This document shows positions 4,935 through 47,048 of a stretch of DNA of 64,000 nucleotides, in pieces (positions within the stretch are counted from its first letter, which is position 1; every line of letters starts with the position of its first letter). The stretch is from Ottowia sp. oral taxon 894. GTDB taxonomy: Bacteria > Pseudomonadota > Gammaproteobacteria > Burkholderiales > Burkholderiaceae_C. The notes beneath the pieces are model-generated. The model saw only the letters and a list, made by a program, of their open reading frames with translations, made no database searches and had not been told where the DNA came from. The DNA is taken from assembly GCF_001262075.1 (NCBI RefSeq), contig NZ_CP012073.1:1909001-1973000 (forward strand). Reading direction: 5' to 3'. The position numbers and the translations under genes are program-made.

Positions 4935-5363
4935 TCAGATTTCCAGCGTTTTGGGCTGCTGGGCGGTGTGCGGATGCTCTGCGCCGCCATACACCTTCAG
5001 CTTCTTGATCATGGCGTAGCCCAGCGGGCCTTTGGGCAGCATGCCCTTGACGGCCTTTTCCAGCGCGCGGCCAGGGTGCTTGGCCTGCATGTCGCGGAAG
5101 GCGGTCATGCGGATGCCGCCGGGGTAGCCGGTGTGGCGGTAATACTTTTTGCTCAGTTCCTTGTTGCCGGTCACGCGGAGCTTGGCGGCATTGACGACGA
5201 TGATGAAGTCGCCGGTATCGACGTGAGGCGTGTAAATGGCTTTGTGCTTGCCGCGCAGACGGAGGGCAACTTCGCTGGCTACCCTGCCGAGCACCTTGTC
5301 GGTGGCGTCAATCACAAACCACTCATGCTTCACGTCAGCGGGTTTTGCGCTGAACGTTTTCAT
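4935..5363 (-). CDS. rplM: 50S ribosomal protein L13
   Basis: Early-assembling large-subunit protein, 142 residues, the normal length. It begins [17 protein letters not shown] and contains [23 protein letters not shown] and the [12 protein letters not shown] and GMLPKGPLG motifs typical of L13. First gene of the rplM-rpsI operon; the upstream region is shared with the divergent rlmJ gene about 200 bases away. Confidence 0.97.
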
Positions 5364-5559
5364 GGTTTTTTCCTTTTCGGGGAAAGTGAAGTGGCTGGCC
5401 CGCTCTTTTCCGCGGTCGGCATTCCTCTGGCGGGAATCTCTCAGGCGGCTGGCGCGCCGAAGCTGGCAAAAATGCCGGCAAAAGCGCGTTTTGTCGCGGA
5501 GCGGGCGGCGCTACAAAAAACCGGCGATTCTACACATGCGCTGCCATTACGATTGCCCC

Positions 5560-6492
5560 ATGTTCAGTTACCGCCACGCCTTTCACGCCGGCAATCATGC
5601 CGACGCGCTCAAGCATCTGACTCTGATTGCCACGCTGCGGCATCTCATGGCCAAGCCCGCGCCGCTTTTGCTGGCGGACACCCATGCGGGCGCGGGCCTG
5701 TACCGGCTGGACAGCGAGGCCGCCCGCACTTCCGGCGAGGCCGCGCAAGGCGTGCTGGCCTTGCAGGCGCAGGCCAATGCGCAGGCCAATGGGCAGGCTG
5801 ATGGCGGCGCGCCCGCGCCCGAAGCCCTGCGCGACTATCTCGACATGGTCGCCAGCTTCAACGCGCCGGGCAAAAGCTGGCGCATCTACCCCGGATCGCC
5901 CTTCATCATGCAGCGCCTCATGGCGGCGCAAGAGCGCGCCGCCGTGCACGACCGCCTGCGCCTGTTCGAGCTGCATCCGTCTGATATTCACGCGCTGCAA
6001 GCCAATGTGGCCCAGTTGCAGGCGGGCCGCCAAATCACCATTCAGACCGAAGACGGCTTTGCCGCCCTGCCCGCCCTGCTGCCGCCGCCCGCAGCGGCTG
6101 GCGGTTCGCGCCGCGCGCTGGCGCTGATGGACCCCAGCTACGAAATCAAGACCGACTACGCCCGCGCGGCCGCCGCCATCCAGCAATGCCTGCAACGCTT
6201 TGCCACGGGCGTGTATCTCGTCTGGCACCCCATCATCGCCCGGCCTGAAGCGCACGGCCTGCCGCGCCGCCTCAAGACCCTGGCCAATCAGGCGCGGCGC
6301 GGCTGGCTTCACGCCACGCTGAACGTGGGCGCGGCCAAGGGGCAGGCGGGCCTGTCGGCCAGCGGCGTGTTCGTCATCAACCCGCCGCATACCTTGCCCG
6401 CCGCCCTGCGCGCGGCCCTGCCCGCCGTGCTGAATGCGCTCAAGCGTGGGGCCGGGCAGGGCTGGACGGTGGAGACGGGCGGGCTGAAATAA
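5560..6492 (+). CDS. rlmJ: 23S rRNA (adenine-2030-N6)-methyltransferase RlmJ
   Basis: SAM-dependent enzyme that methylates A2030 of 23S rRNA. The 310-residue protein starts MFSYRHAFHAGNHADALKH, the characteristic N terminus of RlmJ (YhiR). Further marks are LADTHAGAGLYRL (SAM binding), the catalytic motif region LMDPSYEIKTDY (DPPY-like) and VYLVWHPI. The Met at 5560 was chosen because the longer frame upstream codes for nothing conserved. Residues around 80-95 hold a small Gln/Ala repeat (QAQANAQANGQA) that may be a family insertion. Confidence 0.93.
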   Translation: MFSYRHAFHAGNHADALKHLTLIATLRHLMAKPAPLLLADTHAGAGLYRLDSEAARTSGEAAQGVLALQAQANAQANGQADGGAPAPEALRDYLDMVASFNAPGKSWRIYPGSPFIMQRLMAAQERAAVHDRLRLFELHPSDIHALQANVAQLQAGRQITIQTEDGFAALPALLPPPAAAGGSRRALALMDPSYEIKTDYARAAAAIQQCLQRFATGVYLVWHPIIARPEAHGLPRRLKTLANQARRGWLHATLNVGAAKGQAGLSASGVFVINPPHTLPAALRAALPAVLNALKRGAGQGWTVETGGLK

Positions 6493-19640: not shown

Positions 19641-19674
19641 CCAAAAAACACGCCGCCCAAGAGGGCGGCGTTTT
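19641..19674 (-). terminator. Terminator-like hairpin between plsX and fabH
   Basis: Eight-base perfect stem CGCCGCCC / GGGCGGCG with a four-base loop. On the minus strand it is followed by TGTTTTTTGG. It lies right after the plsX stop and 20 bases before fabH, so it may attenuate fabH expression. Confidence 0.65.
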
Positions 19675-20717
19675 CAGTTTGTCGTGGTGACGGCCGGCTG
19701 GGGGGCGGCGCAGGCCAGCAGCGGCGCGGCGCGCGTGATGCGCTCCTGCACGCGGCCCAGCAGTCCGTGGCGGGCCGCATCATACGCGCGGGTCATGGCG
19801 CAGCAGAACGCGAATTCATCAGCGCCGCCGTGGCTCTTGAAGACCAGGCCGCGCAGCCCCAGCAGGGCCGCACCGTTGTGGCGGCGCGGGTCGATGCGCT
19901 TTTTCAGCGCGCCCAGCACGGGCATGGCCGCCAGCGCGGCCAGTTTGGTGAGCAGGTTGCGCGAGAACTCTTCGCGCAGAAAGCCCGCAATCATGCTGGC
20001 CAGCCCTTCGGTGGTTTTCAGCGCCACGTTGCCCACGAAGCCGTCGCATACCACGATGTCGGTGGTGCCCTTGAAGGTGTCGTTGCCCTCCACATTGCCG
20101 TAAAAGTTGATCACGCCGGTTTGCGCGGCCTGGCGCAGCAGCTCGCCAGCGCGCTTGATTTCTTCGCTGCCCTTGATGGCTTCTTCACCGATGTTGAGCA
20201 GGCCTACGAGCGGGTCGGGCTTGCCGCTCAGGGCTGAAACCAGGGCCGATCCCAGCACGGCAAATTGCAGCAGGTGCTCGGCGGTGCAGTCCACGTTGGC
20301 GCCCAGATCGAGCATGGTGGTGGCGCCGCCCTTGCTGTTGGGCATGGGGTAGGCGATGGCGGGGCGGTCAATGCCTTCAGCGGTTTTCAGCACGTAGCGG
20401 GCAATGGCCATGAGCGCACCTGTATTGCCGGCGGACAGGGCCACGTCGGCCTGGCCGCCTTTCACCTGCTCGATGGCCACCCGCATGGACGAGTCTTTTT
20501 TGCGCCGCAGGGCTACTTCCACAGGGTCGTCCATGCTCACGATTTCGCTGGCGGGCACCACGCGCGCACGGGGATGCGCAAAACCCGCCAGCGCCTCGGG
20601 CTGCCCCACCAGCAGCAGGCTGGCGTCGTCATGCTGCTTCAGAAACTGGCGGCAGGCTGGCAGCGTGACTTGCGTGCCGTGGTCGCCGCCCATGCAATCA
20701 ATGGCCAGAATGGTCAT
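19674..20717 (-). CDS. plsX: Phosphate acyltransferase PlsX
   Basis: Makes acyl-phosphate from acyl-ACP, the first step toward phosphatidic acid with PlsY. The 347-residue protein starts [14 protein letters not shown], the canonical PlsX N terminus, and contains [12 protein letters not shown] and [13 protein letters not shown]. In relatives plsX directly follows rpmF; here about 4.2 kb of foreign-looking DNA separates them. Its ATG overlaps the stop of the YetF-like gene (ATGA), so its translation now depends on, or is coupled to, that gene. Confidence 0.95.
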
Positions 20718-21364
20718 ATGTGTAAGCCTTGATTCGGGAGAGAACTTGTTACTGTAATCTTTCCGCTGTCGTATTCCGCAAGAAATACCGTTCCAACGTC
20801 CGTTATTCCCTGAGTTTTCAATTCAGCCAGCAGCCAATTTTCATCTTTATCAATCATTTCCAGTGTGGCTGGCTGAATGCTGCCGTCAGTAATCAACGGA
20901 TATTTCGGATTTTCCTCGCCAAAAGACGTGATGATGAGCTGCCCGTCCTGCTCAAGAATGGCCTGCTTGACATCTTTGACCGCATAAATGCCCTGCATAC
21001 GCAGCTTGAAGGATAAATCATTTGCCGAGATGCCTGCCTTGCGCGCCGCGTCTACATCGATTTTGCCGCGTGAAATCAACATGACAGGTTGCCCGTCCAC
21101 CCATCTCTTGACCCAATTATTATGTTTTTTCAGCCAACGCAGCGATAAAACCGCCGCAAACCAAATGGCCAAAATCAACATGAATACAGGGATGGAAATA
21201 TCAGTATTGTAGATGACACCACCGACAATACCGCCAAGCACATAGTTCTGCACCTGGTCGCTGGCCGAAGCGGGCGCAAGATTGCCCTTTCCGGTCAAAT
21301 TAATCACCAGCACAAGCGCCAATAGGCCCAAGATGAGTTTGACTGCAACGATTATGTAAAACAT
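20714..21364 (-). CDS. YetF/YcaP-like (DUF421) membrane protein
   Basis: A 216-residue membrane protein with three N-terminal hydrophobic segments (about residues 3-22, 42-55 and 58-75) and a cytoplasmic DUF421-type domain carrying [21 protein letters not shown] and the phrase [24 protein letters not shown]421 proteins are found at the inner membrane and in spore-forming bacteria affect stress or germination; the biochemical role is unknown. Base composition is clearly lower in GC than plsX and it lies at the edge of the foreign segment. It overlaps plsX by four bases. Confidence 0.8.
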
Positions 21365-21465
21365 CAGCGTATGACTCTTAGAAATAGCATTTTTGGCGGG
21401 CGCGGTTCAGGTTGGATCTGTACTTGCGTCCCCATGAATTGCCAGCAGAATTGTACCCAACAATA

Positions 21466-21620
21466 TTAATGCACATCTTCCCAATTTGTTCCCACACCAG
21501 CTTCAGCCACCAGCGGCGCTTTCGATATCCCCGCATCCACCTTCGCCATCATCTGCGGCAGTTTTTCTTTTACCCAATCCAGTTCGGCTTCGGGTACTTC
21601 CAGCACCAGTTTGGCCGGTC
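21466..21620 (-). pseudogene. polA: 3' fragment of DNA polymerase I gene (Neisseria-like), copy 1
   Basis: On the minus strand the frame reads AKLVLEVPEAELDWVKEK then LPQMMAKVDAGISKAPLV and ends TNWEDVH before TAA at 21466. This is the last ~50 residues of DNA polymerase I, closely matching the second fragment at 24153-24665 and the neisserial PolA C terminus as I know it. The 5' side ends abruptly at a perfect 20-base inverted repeat (21618-21637). Too short to be functional. Confidence 0.8.
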
Positions 21621-21637
21621 GGATTCTCGAATCCGAC
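21618..21637. repeat. Perfect inverted repeat at polA fragment boundary
   Basis: The sequence GTCGGATTCTCGAATCCGAC has 9-base arms around TC. It marks the exact point where polA homology of fragment 1 stops and lies 44 bases from the DUF2971 stop, so it may be a relic of the element or repeat that rearranged the segment. Confidence 0.7.
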
Positions 21638-21680
21638 GACTTTGGGATGGCAGTGGCTTAAATATCCGGCCTGCTGCTGG

Positions 21681-22844
21681 CTAATCCTTCTTGATCGGCG
21701 GATTGGCATTAATCGGCAACGACGAGCGGGAAACTTTAGTATTTGGGTAATGCTTCCGCATCAAATGCTGAAACGCTTCCGCCTTGCGCCCTTTCCCGCT
21801 TTTTTCGTAATTTGTCCCCAAAATCACTTCATCCACAATATCGCGCGCATCAGCATAAGGCAGATAGATAGATTGCGTAGTTTCGCAATATTCGATTTTG
21901 TTTGAACCGATTTTTTCGATTTTTAGCAAGCGAAACTCTTCTTCATCGCGGAATGCAAAATCTTTAAACAGATAGCGGATATATTCCAAAGGATAGCGAA
22001 TATATTCCAAAGCTTCTCTGTCTTCATCATTGATATTGGATTTTTCCTTGAAAAAATCAATTAACTGCTTCAATGCTTTTTCAAGCTCGTCGATGCGAAA
22101 ATCATGCCAACTTGAATTTTTTCCTACAGGCTCTAATTGAATGCCGAATTTTTGATCATCCTCACTCGGTAACCATATTCTACATTTATCTCCAGCAAGA
22201 TATTCATCTTTATAAGCAATATAAGCTACTTGATAAAGCGGTAGGTTTACATCTTCCAAATCTGCATCAGATATATCTGCTTCTACCGGCTGTTCCCTCG
22301 AATATTCATCCCCTTTTTTTGCCATGCTACGGAATGAGACGGAAACATCGGGCTCTTTCAACCAATTCCCATCTTTATTAAATACCAAACAACAGCCCGA
22401 TGCCTCAACACCATTTTCTTTGCCATACAGACGGAACTGGTTCAAATCGTTTATACGGCTGGAAAAGCAGGCAAAAAAAGCATTATGGTCAGGGCAATCG
22501 ACTTTGTTTTCCAATTCTAAATCCTGAAGATTTAGCAGCTCTAATAAGCCCTCTCCTTCTGTTGGATCGTTCATATAGGTGGAGCTGCTGATTCTCATTG
22601 GAGTGGCCTGCTGCTTGTCAACTGGATCCTTTTCTTTATTATTAACATCATTTTTATCATGAACAATGCCGAATAATTTCTCGCATGCGGAAGGTGAAGT
22701 ATAATGGGCAAGTGGAGTTGAGTCCAATTCAATGGGTGGAATATTTAAAACCGCTAAAATGGCAGAAATAGCGCTTGTTAAATTTTCTTTGTTATCCTTA
22801 AATAGGTTGTCTTCAAATAGTTTTTTCTGTATTTCCTGTTTTTT
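21681..22844 (-). CDS. DUF2971-like domain, C-terminal half of an amber-split gene
   Basis: Minus-strand frame open from the amber codon at 22845-22847 to the stop at 21681; the only plausible internal start is TTG at 22725-22727 (348 codons). The N-terminal part LAHYTSPSACEKLFGIV then STYMNDPTEGEGLLELL and FFACFSSRINDLNQFRLYG matches the pattern of the uncharacterised DUF2971 family. The 39 codons between the amber codon and the TTG contain no stop and continue the frame of the TPR gene exactly. Most likely the C-terminal domain of a single ~810-residue protein, now expressed only by readthrough or reinitiation. AT-rich compared with the neighbours. Confidence 0.75.
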   Translation of the reverse strand, partial: KKQEIQKKLFEDNLFKDNKENLTSAISAILAVLNIPPIELDSTPLAHYTSPSACEKLFGIVHDKNDVNNKEKDPVDKQQATPMRISSSTYMNDPTEGEGLLELLNLQDLELENKVDCPDHNAFFACFSSRINDLNQFRLYGKENGVEASGCCLVFNKDGNWLKEPDVSVSFRSMAKKGDEYSREQPVEADISDADLEDVNLPLYQVAYIAYKDEYLAGDKCRIWLPSEDDQKFGIQLEPVGKNSSWHDFRIDELEKALKQLIDFFKEKSNINDEDREALEYIRYPLEYIRYLFKDFAFRDEEEFRLLKIEKIGSNKIEYCETTQSIYLPYADARDIVDEVILGTNYEKSGKGRKAEAFQHLMRKHYPNTKVSRSSLPINANPPIKKD

Positions 22845-24107
22845 CTATTCAAAATATATTCCCCATTTTTTTCGAACTAATGGTGGTAAGTGCTTAAAAA
22901 AATCTAGCCGTTTTTGAAAATATTTATTGTCCTGTTCGGGTAACTTAGCTGCTGCTTCTTTTTCTGCCTTTATGGCCTGTCTGAAATAACAACGGCCTAG
23001 CAAAAATTGGGCATTGTCTTGTTGCCGGAGACGGCCTTGTTCATCTGTCAGCTGTTCGATAAGCCGTAATTGAGATTGGTAATGTTCAACTGCCTGTCCA
23101 AACAAATGTTCAGAAGCCTCTTCTTCGGCTCTCATCGCCTGCTCTAAATAGCAACGGCCTAACCAAGATTGGGCATTGATTTGCTTTTGAATGCTGTTTT
23201 GCTTGTCTTCCAACTGTTTGGCAAGCCTCAGTTGCTGTTGGTGGCGTTTAATTGCAAGTCCAAACAAATGTTTAGAAGCCTCTTCTTCGGCTTTCATCGC
23301 CTGTTCAAAATAGCAACGGCCTAGCCAATGTTGGGCACTGATCTGTTCCTGAATACCGTTTTCGTCCCCCAGCTGTTTAGCAAGTCTCAATTGCTGTTGG
23401 CGGTGTTTAACTGCCTGTCCAAATAAATGTTCCGCATCCTTTCCTTTAGCTTGCTTGGCCTGCTCTAAATAGCAGCGGCCTAGCCAAGCCTCGGCATAGA
23501 TCTGTCCCTGAATACCGTTTTCGCCCTCCAACTGTTCGGCAAGCCTCAATTGCTGTTGGTGGTGTTCAATTGCCTGTTCAAACAACCGTGTAGAAGCCTC
23601 ACCTTTGGCTTTCATCGCCTGCTCAAAATAGCAACGGCCTAGCCAAGATTGGGCATAGATCTGTCCCTGAATACCGTTTTCGCCCTCCAACTGTTCGGCA
23701 AGCCTCAATTGCTGTTGGTGGTGTTCAATTGCCTGTTCAAACAACCGTGTAGAAGCCTCACCTTTGGCTTTCATCGCCTGCTCAAAATAGCAACGGCCTA
23801 GCCAAGATTGGGCATAGATCTGTTCCTGAATACCGTTTTCGCCCCCCAACTGTTCGGCAAGCCTCAATTGTTGTTGGTGGTGTTCAATTGCCTGTTCAAA
23901 CAACCGTGTAGAAGCCTCTCCTTTGGTTTTCATTGCCTGCTCAAAATAGCAACGGCCTAGCCAAAACTGAATATCATTTCGCTCCTGAATCTGGCTATCT
24001 TTATTTTCAATTTTTCCTGAAGCCTGACTCAGTTTCGTAATTGCTTCATCAAATTTTTTATTCTTGAATAAACTTACGCCTTCTTTAATTAAATTTAGGA
24101 TGTTCAT
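22845..24107 (-). CDS. Tetratricopeptide-like repeat protein, N-terminal half of an amber-split gene
   Basis: A 420-residue protein of seven TPR-like units of 53-54 residues with consensus QSWLGRCYFEQAMKAKGEAS, then LFEQAIEHHQQQLRLAEQL. Such helical arrays bind other proteins. The start MNILNLIKEG at 24107 has AAGGGG eight bases upstream. The gene ends in TAG at 22845-22847, and the same frame continues into the DUF2971 part. Base composition is far lower in GC than flanking genes, and it follows a polA 3' fragment by 45 bases. Function unknown; a role in defence or effector binding would be speculation. Confidence 0.8.
   Translation of the reverse strand: MNILNLIKEGVSLFKNKKFDEAITKLSQASGKIENKDSQIQERNDIQFWLGRCYFEQAMKTKGEASTRLFEQAIEHHQQQLRLAEQLGGENGIQEQIYAQSWLGRCYFEQAMKAKGEASTRLFEQAIEHHQQQLRLAEQLEGENGIQGQIYAQSWLGRCYFEQAMKAKGEASTRLFEQAIEHHQQQLRLAEQLEGENGIQGQIYAEAWLGRCYLEQAKQAKGKDAEHLFGQAVKHRQQQLRLAKQLGDENGIQEQISAQHWLGRCYFEQAMKAEEEASKHLFGLAIKRHQQQLRLAKQLEDKQNSIQKQINAQSWLGRCYLEQAMRAEEEASEHLFGQAVEHYQSQLRLIEQLTDEQGRLRQQDNAQFLLGRCYFRQAIKAEKEAAAKLPEQDNKYFQKRLDFFKHLPPLVRKKWGIYFE
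22848..23969 (-). repeat. Tandem coding repeat, seven units of ~159 bp
   Basis: The repeats that code the TPR-like units. Two adjacent units (starting near 23502 and 23661 on the plus strand) are almost identical at the DNA level with a period of 159 bases, and the third is nearly so, while units toward the C terminus have diverged. This indicates recent expansion in the N-terminal part of the array. Confidence 0.9.
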
Positions 24108-24152
24108 CGTTTTATCCCCTTCTTGAAACAATCTCTTGAATACTACATAATC

Positions 24153-24665
24153 TCAATGCGCTTTTCCACAATTCATGCTCACGCCGACCTCTTCTATCAG
24201 CGGCGCTTTCAATATCCCTTCATTCACTTTCGCCATCATCTGTGACCGTTTTTCTTTGACTAAATCCAGTTTGGCTTCGGGCGCTTCCAGCACCAGTTCG
24301 TCATGCGCCTGCATGATTAGCTTGCTTTTCAGGCCGTCTGAAAGCCAGCGGGACACGTCTGTCATGGCGCGTTTGATGAGGTCGGATGCAGTGCCTTGCA
24401 TGGGGGCGTTGATGGCGGCGCGTTCGGCTCCGGCGCGGGCGTTGGCGTTTTTGTTGCGGATGTCGGGCAGGTAGAGGCGGCGGCCGGACGGGTTCTCGAC
24501 GAAGCCTTGGACTGCGGCTTGTTCTTTGGTGCGCTGCATGTATTCGGCAACGCCAAGGTGCGGGCGAAGTAGCGGGCGATGAAGGTTTTGGCGGACAGGC
24601 TGCCTATACCCAGCGACTTGGCGAGGCCGTATTGGCCCATGCCGTCAATCAAGCCGCGAAGTTGA
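24153..24665 (-). pseudogene. polA: 3' fragment of DNA polymerase I gene (Neisseria-like), copy 2
   Basis: Homology to PolA starts at KTINF near 24665 and runs to the stop at 24153 (GVSMNCGKAH). An upstream frame gives GMGQYGLAKSLGIGSLSAKTF and then shifts; the downstream frame gives RTKEQAAVQGFVENPSGRRL, followed by NAPMQGTASDLIKRAM and LIMQAHDELVLEAPEAKLDL. These are the polymerase motif B and C regions of family A polymerases (QAHDEL is the catalytic palm motif). At least two frameshifts and missing conserved residues make it a pseudogene. It carries a Neisseria uptake sequence and has neisserial rather than Comamonadaceae character. Confidence 0.85.
24331..24342 (+). other. Neisserial DNA uptake sequence (AG-DUS)
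   Basis: AGGCCGTCTGAA matches the 12-mer AG-DUS dialect used by several Neisseria species for natural transformation; its 10-base core is GCCGTCTGAA. It lies inside polA fragment 2, where the minus strand reads as SDGLK. No second copy was found in the window. Confidence 0.85.
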
Positions 24666-24866
24666 TGGTTTTGGTTGAGTTTGGCCGTGAGGGGCGAAAG
24701 CTCGGGAATCGGAGTGGGCTGCAAGGTGCAAACCGCAGACGGGCCTTGGGGGCGGTGAAGACGTGCAACGCCGCAGGCTGCCCGAGGCCGGGTTTTTCAC
24801 ACCCGCCGACAGACTTTGAACAGGTTCCAAGAGGCCCGCGCCATAAAACGCCGGTTCCATGAACAA

Positions 24867-24911
24867 CGAAGGCCCGGAGGCTACGCAGATCAGGCGTAGT
24901 GCCGGGCCTTT
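24867..24911. terminator. Long hairpin downstream of rpmF
   Basis: AAGGCCCGG pairs with CCGGGCCTT, and an inner stem CTACGC / GCGTAG makes a two-part hairpin. It lies 55 bases past the rpmF stop. The T-run on the minus strand is weak, so its use as a terminator is uncertain. The remaining bases between polA fragment 2 and rpmF (24666-24965) show only a family B string at 24809-24830. Confidence 0.45.
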
Positions 24912-24965
24912 GGGATGACGGGAGCGCCGCTGGCAGCCTGATTTCTGCTGCCGGAAAGACTCGCC

Positions 24966-25148
24966 TCAGTCTTGCGACTTGGGCTTGATGACCTGGCGGC
25001 CACGGTAAAAGCCGTTGGGGCTGATGTGGTGGCGCAGGTGAATTTCGCCCGTGGTGGGTTCTTCTGCAATGCCGGGGGCGGTGAGGGCATTGTGCGAGCG
25101 GTGCATTCCGCGCTTGGAAGGCGATTTTTTGTTCTGTTGAACAGCCAT
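24966..25148 (-). CDS. rpmF: 50S ribosomal protein L32
   Basis: A 60-residue ribosomal protein beginning [20 protein letters not shown], the standard L32 N terminus. It is followed by [33 protein letters not shown]. Like many L32 proteins of betaproteobacteria it lacks the four zinc-binding cysteines (C-minus form). Start at 25148; a longer frame upstream is not conserved. It follows yceD as usual, but its normal downstream neighbour plsX is 4.2 kb away. Confidence 0.95.
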
Positions 25149-45368: not shown

Positions 45369-45800
45369 ATGCCCGCCGTCGCCTCCCGTGGCCGTGGTCG
45401 CCGCTCCGTCAATGAAATCAACATGGTTCCCTTCATTGACGTGATGCTGGTGCTGCTCATCATCTTCATGGTCACCGCCACCGTCATCACCCCTGGCGCC
45501 ATCAACGTGCCCACCGCTGGCAAATCCTCCCGCCCGCCTGAAAACTACATGATCGTCGCCATTGACGACAAAGGCGTCTACAGCCACAACACGGGCCGCA
45601 CCGGCGGCAAGGACACCCCTCTGCAGCCCGCCCAGAGCGAAGCCGCCCTCATCGCCAGCGTGCAGCAGGCCCTGGCCGGCCAGCCCGACATGCCCGTGCT
45701 CCTGGCCGCCGACAAGAACCTGCCCTACCAGCAAGTCATGAGCCTCATGGGCCGCCTGCGCGAAGCGGGCGTGCAGCGCATCGCGCTCTCCGTGAAATAA
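45369..45800 (+). CDS. tolR: Tol-Pal system protein TolR
   Basis: Anchored periplasmic protein of 143 residues. The single helix carries the proton-path Asp (NMVPFIDVMLVLLIIFMVTA). The periplasmic domain ends VQRIALSVK. It follows tolQ by 24 bases, with AAGGAG before the start. Confidence 0.96.
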   Translation: MPAVASRGRGRRSVNEINMVPFIDVMLVLLIIFMVTATVITPGAINVPTAGKSSRPPENYMIVAIDDKGVYSHNTGRTGGKDTPLQPAQSEAALIASVQQALAGQPDMPVLLAADKNLPYQQVMSLMGRLREAGVQRIALSVK

Positions 45801-45838
45801 GCCCCGCCCTTTTCGGCAGCTACCAAGCAAGGCCCGCC

Positions 45839-46897
45839 ATGCCCGACATGAACCCGGCCCCCGCAGACCCGGCCGAACTCGCCCCGCCGCCCGAACCCAG
45901 CCTGCTCACCGCCTTGCCCTGGGCCATTGGCGCACACGTGGCGCTGCTGCTTGTGTTCGCGCTGCTCAGCATGAGCTGGCGGCGCAGCGAAGAGCAAAGC
46001 GAAGCCATCGAAGCCGAAATCTGGGCTGCCAGCGTGCAGCAGGCCGCCCCCCGCGCCGTGCGCACCGCCCCGCAGCCCAGGCCCCAGCCCGCGCCAGAAC
46101 CCAAGCCCAAACCGCAGCCTGCGCCTGAACCCAAACCCAGGCCCCCGGCTCCCCAGCCTGACACCCGCGAAGCCGACATCGCCCGCGAGCAGAAAGAAAA
46201 AGAACAGCAGCGCCAGCGCCAGCTCGAGCAGCAGCGCCAGGAAAAACTGCGCCTGGAAAAGGAACGCGCCGAAAAAGAACGGCAGGACAAGCTGCGCGAA
46301 GAAAAAGAACGCCAGGAAAAAGAACGCCAGGAAAAAGAAAAACAGCAGAAAGAACGCGCCGAAAAGGAAAAAGAGCGCCAGAAGGAGAAAGAGCGCCTCG
46401 AAAAACAGCTTCAGCAGGAAAAAGAAAAACTCGACCGCGAGCGCCGCGCCGAAGAACGCCGCCAAGCCGAAGCCGACAAAAAAGCCGAAACCGCCCGCCG
46501 CGCCGAAGCCCTGCGCCGCATGAACGCCCTGGCGGGCAGCGGCAGCGATGGCGCAGATGCCGGCCGCAGCGGCACAGGCCGCGCCAGCGGCGGCAGCGGC
46601 AACGGCCAGGCCGACCGCGACGCCGGCCCTTCCGGCAGCTTCGCAGGCCGCGTCAAAGCCCGCGTCAAGCCCAACATCGTTTTTCCTGACGACATCAACG
46701 GCAACCCCGTGGCTGAAGTCGAAGTGCGCACCACCCCCGACGGCACCCTCATCAGCGCCCGCCTGGTCAAGGCCAGCGGCAACCCCGCGTGGGACCGCGC
46801 CGTCGTCCGCGCCGTCGAAAAAACCGGCTCCATGCCGCGCGACGTGGACGGGCGCGTGCACACCCAGTTCACCATCGTCTTCAGGCCCTACGACTGA
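45839..46897 (+). CDS. tolA: Cell envelope integrity protein TolA
   Basis: Links TolQR to the outer membrane; 352 residues. One helix near residue 30 (AIGAHVALLLVFALLS), a Pro-rich linker, then a long Arg/Glu/Lys-rich coiled coil at about residues 115-230 and a globular C-terminal domain (KPNIVFPDDINGNPVAEVEVRTTPDG). The coiled coil contains many near repeats of KERQEK. tolB and pal, which normally follow, are not in this locus. Confidence 0.93.
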   Translation: MPDMNPAPADPAELAPPPEPSLLTALPWAIGAHVALLLVFALLSMSWRRSEEQSEAIEAEIWAASVQQAAPRAVRTAPQPRPQPAPEPKPKPQPAPEPKPRPPAPQPDTREADIAREQKEKEQQRQRQLEQQRQEKLRLEKERAEKERQDKLREEKERQEKERQEKEKQQKERAEKEKERQKEKERLEKQLQQEKEKLDRERRAEERRQAEADKKAETARRAEALRRMNALAGSGSDGADAGRSGTGRASGGSGNGQADRDAGPSGSFAGRVKARVKPNIVFPDDINGNPVAEVEVRTTPDGTLISARLVKASGNPAWDRAVVRAVEKTGSMPRDVDGRVHTQFTIVFRPYD

Positions 46898-47048
46898 GCG
46901 GCCCGGCGGCCGCAACGCACCGCCCGCCGCATGCGCCGGCTGGCGCCCGGCGCGGCGGCCCATCGCCGCCAGACATCGCCGCCAGACTCACCATCAGACA
47001 GCCCGCCGATCTCCGCTGATTTCTTCGCCTTCCTTCGCTCTCGCAGCC

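Follow-up and report, generated by a model that had tools for sequence, protein, structure and literature searches.

Neisseria-Like DNA Between rpmF and plsX

Between the genes rpmF and plsX, the 64,000-nt stretch of the Ottowia sp. oral taxon 894 genome analyzed here (the window) very probably carries a chromosome fragment of a commensal Neisseria of the type that uses the AG dialect of the DNA uptake sequence (AG-DUS), joined into a native inverted-repeat element of the host. As judged by sequence comparison, the origin of this DNA and its insertion are well supported, and its entry by transformation we infer. The host belongs to another family (f1) than the Neisseria genomes (f45), within the same order. 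The original prediction, made from the window alone, had already derived the segment from Neisseria, and the best matches of all its parts are indeed in Neisseria, in Neisseria gene order. Read in the direction of transcription, the import consists of a polA 3′ fragment, a TPR/DUF2971-like gene, a polA 3′ stub, and yetF; the TPR/DUF2971-like gene is the largest part and had not been listed before. The features are as follows (coordinates refer to the window; letter–number handles denote genomes, contigs, loci, and families compared; ORF, open reading frame):

20748–24674, minus strand: import of Neisseria DNA, its unambiguous part ending at 20751 (sequence matches, junction alignments)
24151–24674, minus strand: polA 3′ fragment 1, with frame breaks (gapped alignment; 88.8% identity to G060, 88.6% to G063)
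24331–24342, plus strand: AG-DUS 12-mer inside polA fragment 1, the window holding no other match even if one mismatch is allowed
22845–24107, minus strand: opening part of the TPR/DUF2971-like gene, with the TPR repeats, up to an in-frame stop (TPR families; 708-aa N. sicca ORF)
21681–22727, minus strand: second, DUF2971-like part of this gene, in the same frame (72% to N. sicca)
21468–21611, minus strand: polA 3′ stub 2 (87.5% to N. sicca polA)
20714–21364, minus strand: yetF, residues 1–207 matching Neisseria, last nine residues and stop in host DNA
24677–24827, minus strand: dispersed inverted-repeat element of the host, resembling a miniature inverted-repeat transposable element (MITE), without its last 12–13 nt at the junction (genome copies)
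20741–20750, minus strand: AACAAGTTCT, likely the rest of this element (compared with the ends of other copies)
20718–20747, minus strand: 30 bp of host DNA remaining before plsX (junction alignment)
24966–25148, minus strand: rpmF, host flank of the import (Ribosomal_L32p, E = 2e-21)
19674–20717, minus strand: plsX, host flank on the opposite side

All four host genes are present, in the minus-strand order yceD-rpmF-(insert)-plsX-fabH. Measured between tblastn ends, rpmF and plsX lie 4,251 bp apart in Ottowia sp. oral taxon 894, which agrees with the gap of about 4.2 kb described earlier, compared with 106–307 bp at 23 loci of the same genus and 60–155 bp at six loci from other families of the order (plsX was found, with one match each, in 38 of the 40 relatives searched; 29 loci were fetched and measured). 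The low GC content claimed for the insert is equally evident: it amounts to 0.455 in 20748–24676, as against 0.612–0.711 in 210 equal-sized windows elsewhere in the window, whose GC content outside the insert is about 0.66. The boundaries first proposed, 20714 and 24670, had to be moved to approximately 20748 and 24674, the tail of yetF being host DNA.

Compared across 22 loci, all five pieces of the import have their best identity in Neisseria, with 88.8% for the polA fragment, 77.0% for the TPR part, 78.8% for the DUF2971-like part, 85.0% for the stub with its flank, and 90.8% for yetF. The insert was matched in 45 of 46 genomes of the genus Neisseria, in many of them via polA alone (six candidates scored per genome). 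Two outcomes had been named that would speak against such an origin, namely the same segment in close relatives without neisserial similarity, and best hits of all parts outside Neisseriaceae. Neither was observed. The cargo was absent from 28 other genomes of the host genus, whose polA and dispersed-repeat fragments were their only matches to the segment when ten candidates were scored per genome, a depth at which weak matches could escape. The wider search drew on a sample of 399 genomes from the order rather than on an open database of bacteria at large.

Both polA pieces reported earlier are of neisserial type, and the ORF at 24153–24539 in fragment 1 matches the Pfam family DNA_pol_A (E = 5.5e-34). 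The host's own polA was rejected as their source, since it lies elsewhere (G000:C1:2809949–2810349) and is just 69% identical to the fragment. The stub and yetF align to G063 as a single stretch (804 of 916 columns identical, 88%); in that genome the genes that come after a complete polA are an ATPase gene (HATPase_c slightly over the Pfam cut-off), a DUF4325 gene, a 46-codon polA stub, yetF, and mscS. In N. sicca (L010), a complete polA precedes one 708-aa TPR/DUF2971-like ORF. The succession of polA and a close TPR/DUF2971-like gene was found in four genomes (G041, G048, G050, and, frameshifted, G054), and more distant genes of this kind occur in G044, G045, G052, and G070. To judge from these alignments, the window joins two arrangements of one Neisseria locus; its gene order is that of the Neisseria chromosome, though spread over several genomes. 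The one AG-DUS 12-mer reported in the insert is present, but is weak evidence by itself because 27 of 100 shuffled windows hold at least one match when one mismatch is allowed (0.31 on average); it is the gene content that carries the case.

One TPR/DUF2971-like gene spans 21681–24107, divided by the in-frame stop, and its DUF2971-like part contains a 21-bp tandem duplication at 21971–22012. Intact copies occur in Neisseria; the copy found here is probably non-functional, judging by its sequence. Among the 399 genomes of the order, the DUF2971-like protein was detected at E 1e-5 in its own genome and six genomes of the genus Neisseria only. Its name was taken from motifs and is provisional: the window protein itself has no match to the Pfam profile PF11185 (DUF2971) at E 1, and five of ten aligned relatives match it (best E = 3.9e-6). 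The AlphaFold model of this part is poor, with a mean predicted local distance difference test score (pLDDT) of 45. The host has a distant TPR/DUF2971-like relative (29%) at L142 2832–5153 (G000:C1 ~2439331–2441652), located in a GC-poor stretch.

Insertion Site and Proposed Course of Events

The Neisseria match stops at 24674, and host DNA begins at 24677 within the dispersed element, to which the genome holds at least 44 further matches, 40 of the 139 first-look candidates having been scored. Among the fetched best matches of at least 90 nt, 21 other distinct copies run, by eye, 12–13 nt further, into the inverted repeat of the element start (one extra row represented the same place twice and was excluded). 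Because these 12–13 nt are missing at the left junction and the similar AACAAGTTCT stands at the right one, the import seems to have landed within an inverted-repeat element of the host about 165 bp long, which is the simplest reading of the alignment. The trinucleotide AAC stands at both junctions, and at the right junction it is common to the import and AACAAGTTCT. The element is short, multi-copy, and bounded by terminal inverted repeats of the AGAACCTGTTCA type, as MITEs are, its repeat ends being judged by eye; shorter matches to it occur in other genomes of the genus. The idea that relatives share the element between rpmF and plsX was discarded, as none of 23 such gaps contained a copy.

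The import could thus be pictured as the outcome of several steps. In the donor, a previous exchange of cassettes beside the polA 3′ end would have brought in a new polA end together with its cargo and left the old polA end as a stub. The donor piece would then have comprised the polA 3′ end, the TPR/DUF2971-like cargo gene, the older, displaced polA 3′ stub, and yetF, might have been taken up as naked DNA, and might have been joined to the chromosome by illegitimate recombination at very short matches, namely the AAC at both junctions. In the new host the TPR/DUF2971-like gene is broken, and yetF is open with its end fused to host DNA; through this fusion its stop has come to overlap the plsX start.

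The yetF–plsX Overlap and Expression of plsX-fabH

The naming of yetF in the original prediction is backed by the domains DUF421 and YetF_N (136.1 and 82.9 bits versus Pfam cut-offs of 23.6 and 26.5, respectively), and its overlap with plsX via ATGA is present as described. As the YetF of G063 diverges beyond residue 207, the yetF stop that overlaps plsX consists of host bases, and by this alignment the ATGA overlap arose incidentally where the two DNAs were joined. Such an overlap is usually taken as the mark of an old operon; the present case shows that it can also arise at once by insertion. It had further been proposed that plsX-fabH must now be driven from within or upstream of the insert. 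With 30 bp of host DNA standing ahead of plsX and a terminator-like hairpin downstream of rpmF in the host part, transcription of the two genes probably begins in the import or runs through it, and to this extent the proposal holds. Ten of 23 relatives likewise have a stem of this GGCCCGG type as their best one, as assessed by eye with no shuffle control. In addition, plsX-fabH may be translationally coupled to yetF.

An Apparently Variable polA Flank in Neisseria

The polA 3′ ends of 43 of the 45 Neisseria genomes having one were compared, giving 44 ends (two from G069; G051 and G079 were left out). At 35 of them, the first 400 nt after polA contain the start of an ORF of 90 aa or more, and these ORFs fall into 23 clusters, some of which are not AT-rich and possibly represent ordinary neighbors or chance ORFs; the polA end of G072 is a contig edge. 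Many of the flanking genes are AT-rich even by Neisseria standards. The largest cluster, with seven members, is the TPR/DUF2971-like gene; the copy in G048 was missed, its ORF being longer than the stretch examined. Going by this survey, the region beyond the polA 3′ end appears to be a variable cargo site of Neisseria, which would explain the presence of two polA pieces in the import.

The cargo of seven loci (the window, N. sicca, G063, G065, G055, G085, and G049) was run through Padloc. In G065 (L104 5066–7326), a pair of AAA ATPase and DUF4435 genes immediately after polA matched PtuA1 (E = 1.4e-26) and AriA (6.4e-24), followed by AriB (7.5e-18); we take this pair to be PARIS-like. The ATPase of G063 matched a short part of the DrmA profile (3.8e-10), the TPR part from the window just TPR (2.9e-5) and Csn2 (0.0014), and the cargo of G055, G085, and G049 remained without a match in Padloc. 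That the site serves in defence is a lead and no more. As a variable cargo site, the polA 3′ flank of Neisseria merits a screen for defence genes.

Weighing of Explanations

Several observations weigh against the insertion of a Neisseria chromosome fragment into the host element. The full chain of polA end, TPR/DUF2971-like gene, stub, and yetF occurs in none of the 46 Neisseria genomes. The TPR/DUF2971-like gene is 77–79% identical to its best relative, far under yetF, and so the donor would be unsampled or the parts would be of different age. An empty site was not observed, and where the element ends on the host side had to be deduced from other copies. A plsX promoter inside the import is not supported, as promoter-like sites number 5 versus 5.1 by chance. 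Finally, another family of the order, outside Neisseria, holds a YetF relative at 86%. A close yetF is present in one of 46 Neisseria genomes, G063 (96% protein and 91% DNA identity), and ten others have a form at 47–52%. Because of this rarity and the relative in the other family, yetF was probably not neisserial to begin with, as far as its distribution tells. Around that relative (G212:C1:2884745–2885365, L141) GC content is locally lower, and neither a polA match nor a DUS was found nearby.

Instead of free chromosomal DNA, a mobile element (transposon, integrative element, or plasmid) could have carried Neisseria DNA that it had picked up, which we consider unlikely. The position within a dispersed inverted-repeat element would suit this explanation, and the AAC at both junctions could be a 3-bp target duplication. 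However, the eight scanned ORFs of the segment and its flanks include no transposase or integrase family, the import starts within the polA coding sequence, and the inverted repeats found in 20600–25000 do not bracket it; with neither a transposase gene nor matching ends seen, it does not have the makeup of a transposon or insertion sequence. There is even less to recommend a transfer in the reverse direction, or the acquisition of the cargo by the host and Neisseria from a third source. The 86% YetF relative and the AT-richness of many polA-flank genes would agree with it, but both are disfavored because the cargo stands next to Neisseria polA ends and follows the Neisseria order, and the host keeps its own polA, only 69% identical to the fragment, elsewhere. 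An assembly or contamination artefact is the least credible explanation, since Neisseria DNA, a plausible contaminant if the habitat is shared, would here have been misjoined within a single 2.93-Mb contig (completeness 99.96%, contamination 0.15%), and the segment is 77–91% identical to the nearest Neisseria, shows decay in the form of a stop, frame breaks, and a duplication, and has been joined to the host within one of its own elements.

Relation to Known Systems

The concept of minimal mobile elements of Neisseria reportedly goes back to Saunders and Snyder in 2002. The import resembles such elements, as described for the drg/leuS locus in PMC4269198, in that a cassette without mobility genes lies beside a conserved gene and differs between genomes, and in that a truncated extra copy of the conserved gene stands alongside (leuS there, polA here). 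Within Neisseria, the 23 clusters at 35 of 44 polA ends likewise represent varied cargo beside a conserved gene. In contrast, the window cassette stands outside Neisseria and away from its usual neighbors, between host rpmF and plsX and with mscS absent. The polA flank is not named as a minimal mobile element site in the accessible portions of PMC1538595 and PMC4269198.

Horizontal transfer of this sort is ordinary in kind; the pair of families, the repetition, and the place are less so. Between Haemophilus and Neisseria, genes bearing uptake sequences have moved from genus to genus. There as here, DNA tagged in this way crosses between distant bacteria, but the present case differs in its recipient family, in the number of segments, and in a site without long homology. 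AG-DUS is one of the DUS dialects of Neisseriaceae, according to PMC3630211, and the window 12-mer has this form in a genome outside the Neisseria family. Searches of open-access literature for DUS in combination with Ottowia, oral Comamonadaceae, or non-Neisseriaceae turned up no earlier description of such an import.

Further Neisseria-Like Pieces in the Host Genome

The host genome contains 11 DUS 12-mers of the pattern searched, seven of them AG-DUS, versus two in a reversed control. Six of the 11 form three close pairs, and single 12-mers lie at 444200, 720414, and 1449818. The spelling found in the window is the prevailing one in G054 (25) and G063 (23), in about 20 kb each. The first pair encloses a gst-like gene, named by eye (L113 5129–5897, G000:C1 ~2004128–2004896), whose two DUS are of the AG type; over about 770 bp the segment reaches 96.6% identity with G054 and 94.0% with G063, and it is the most recent-looking import by sequence identity. 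Two AG-DUS also flank an HxlR-type regulator and a reductase gene, both assigned by eye (L111 ~5250–6430, G000:C1 ~1351250–1352430); this segment is 69–76% identical to G045, G049, and G079, and 71 bp at its end are 99% identical to G054 and G041. The third piece is AT-rich (L110 2822–6348, G000:C1 ~1180821–1184347) and carries a DUS pair and 189 bp with 85% identity to gonococcus; around it, an 849-bp mnmA stretch (named by eye) is duplicated at 99.8%. For these latter two pieces identity is weaker and the donors appear less sure. A locus with one mucDUS (L107) was not counted as an import, as the first six of 497 records included no clear Neisseria match.

On the strength of these matches, DNA has crossed from Neisseria into the host family more than once. 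This would mean that genes of commensal Neisseria have repeatedly entered a genome outside their own family, with the gst segment (97%) recent enough to hint at the donor group. Tentatively, and with somewhat more doubt than conviction, we suggest a broader scheme, in which the polA 3′ flank is a Neisseria cargo site for many AT-rich genes, some of them of a known defence type. Its cassettes would carry a polA 3′ end, leave the old stub behind, and leak as chromosomal fragments into an unrelated family of the same habitat, which would have taken up several pieces and placed a lipid-synthesis operon under an imported gene.

Elsewhere in the window, at 45500–47000, two 1-kb windows have an AT skew of 0.52–0.58, and short tandem repeats occupy 46074–46376.

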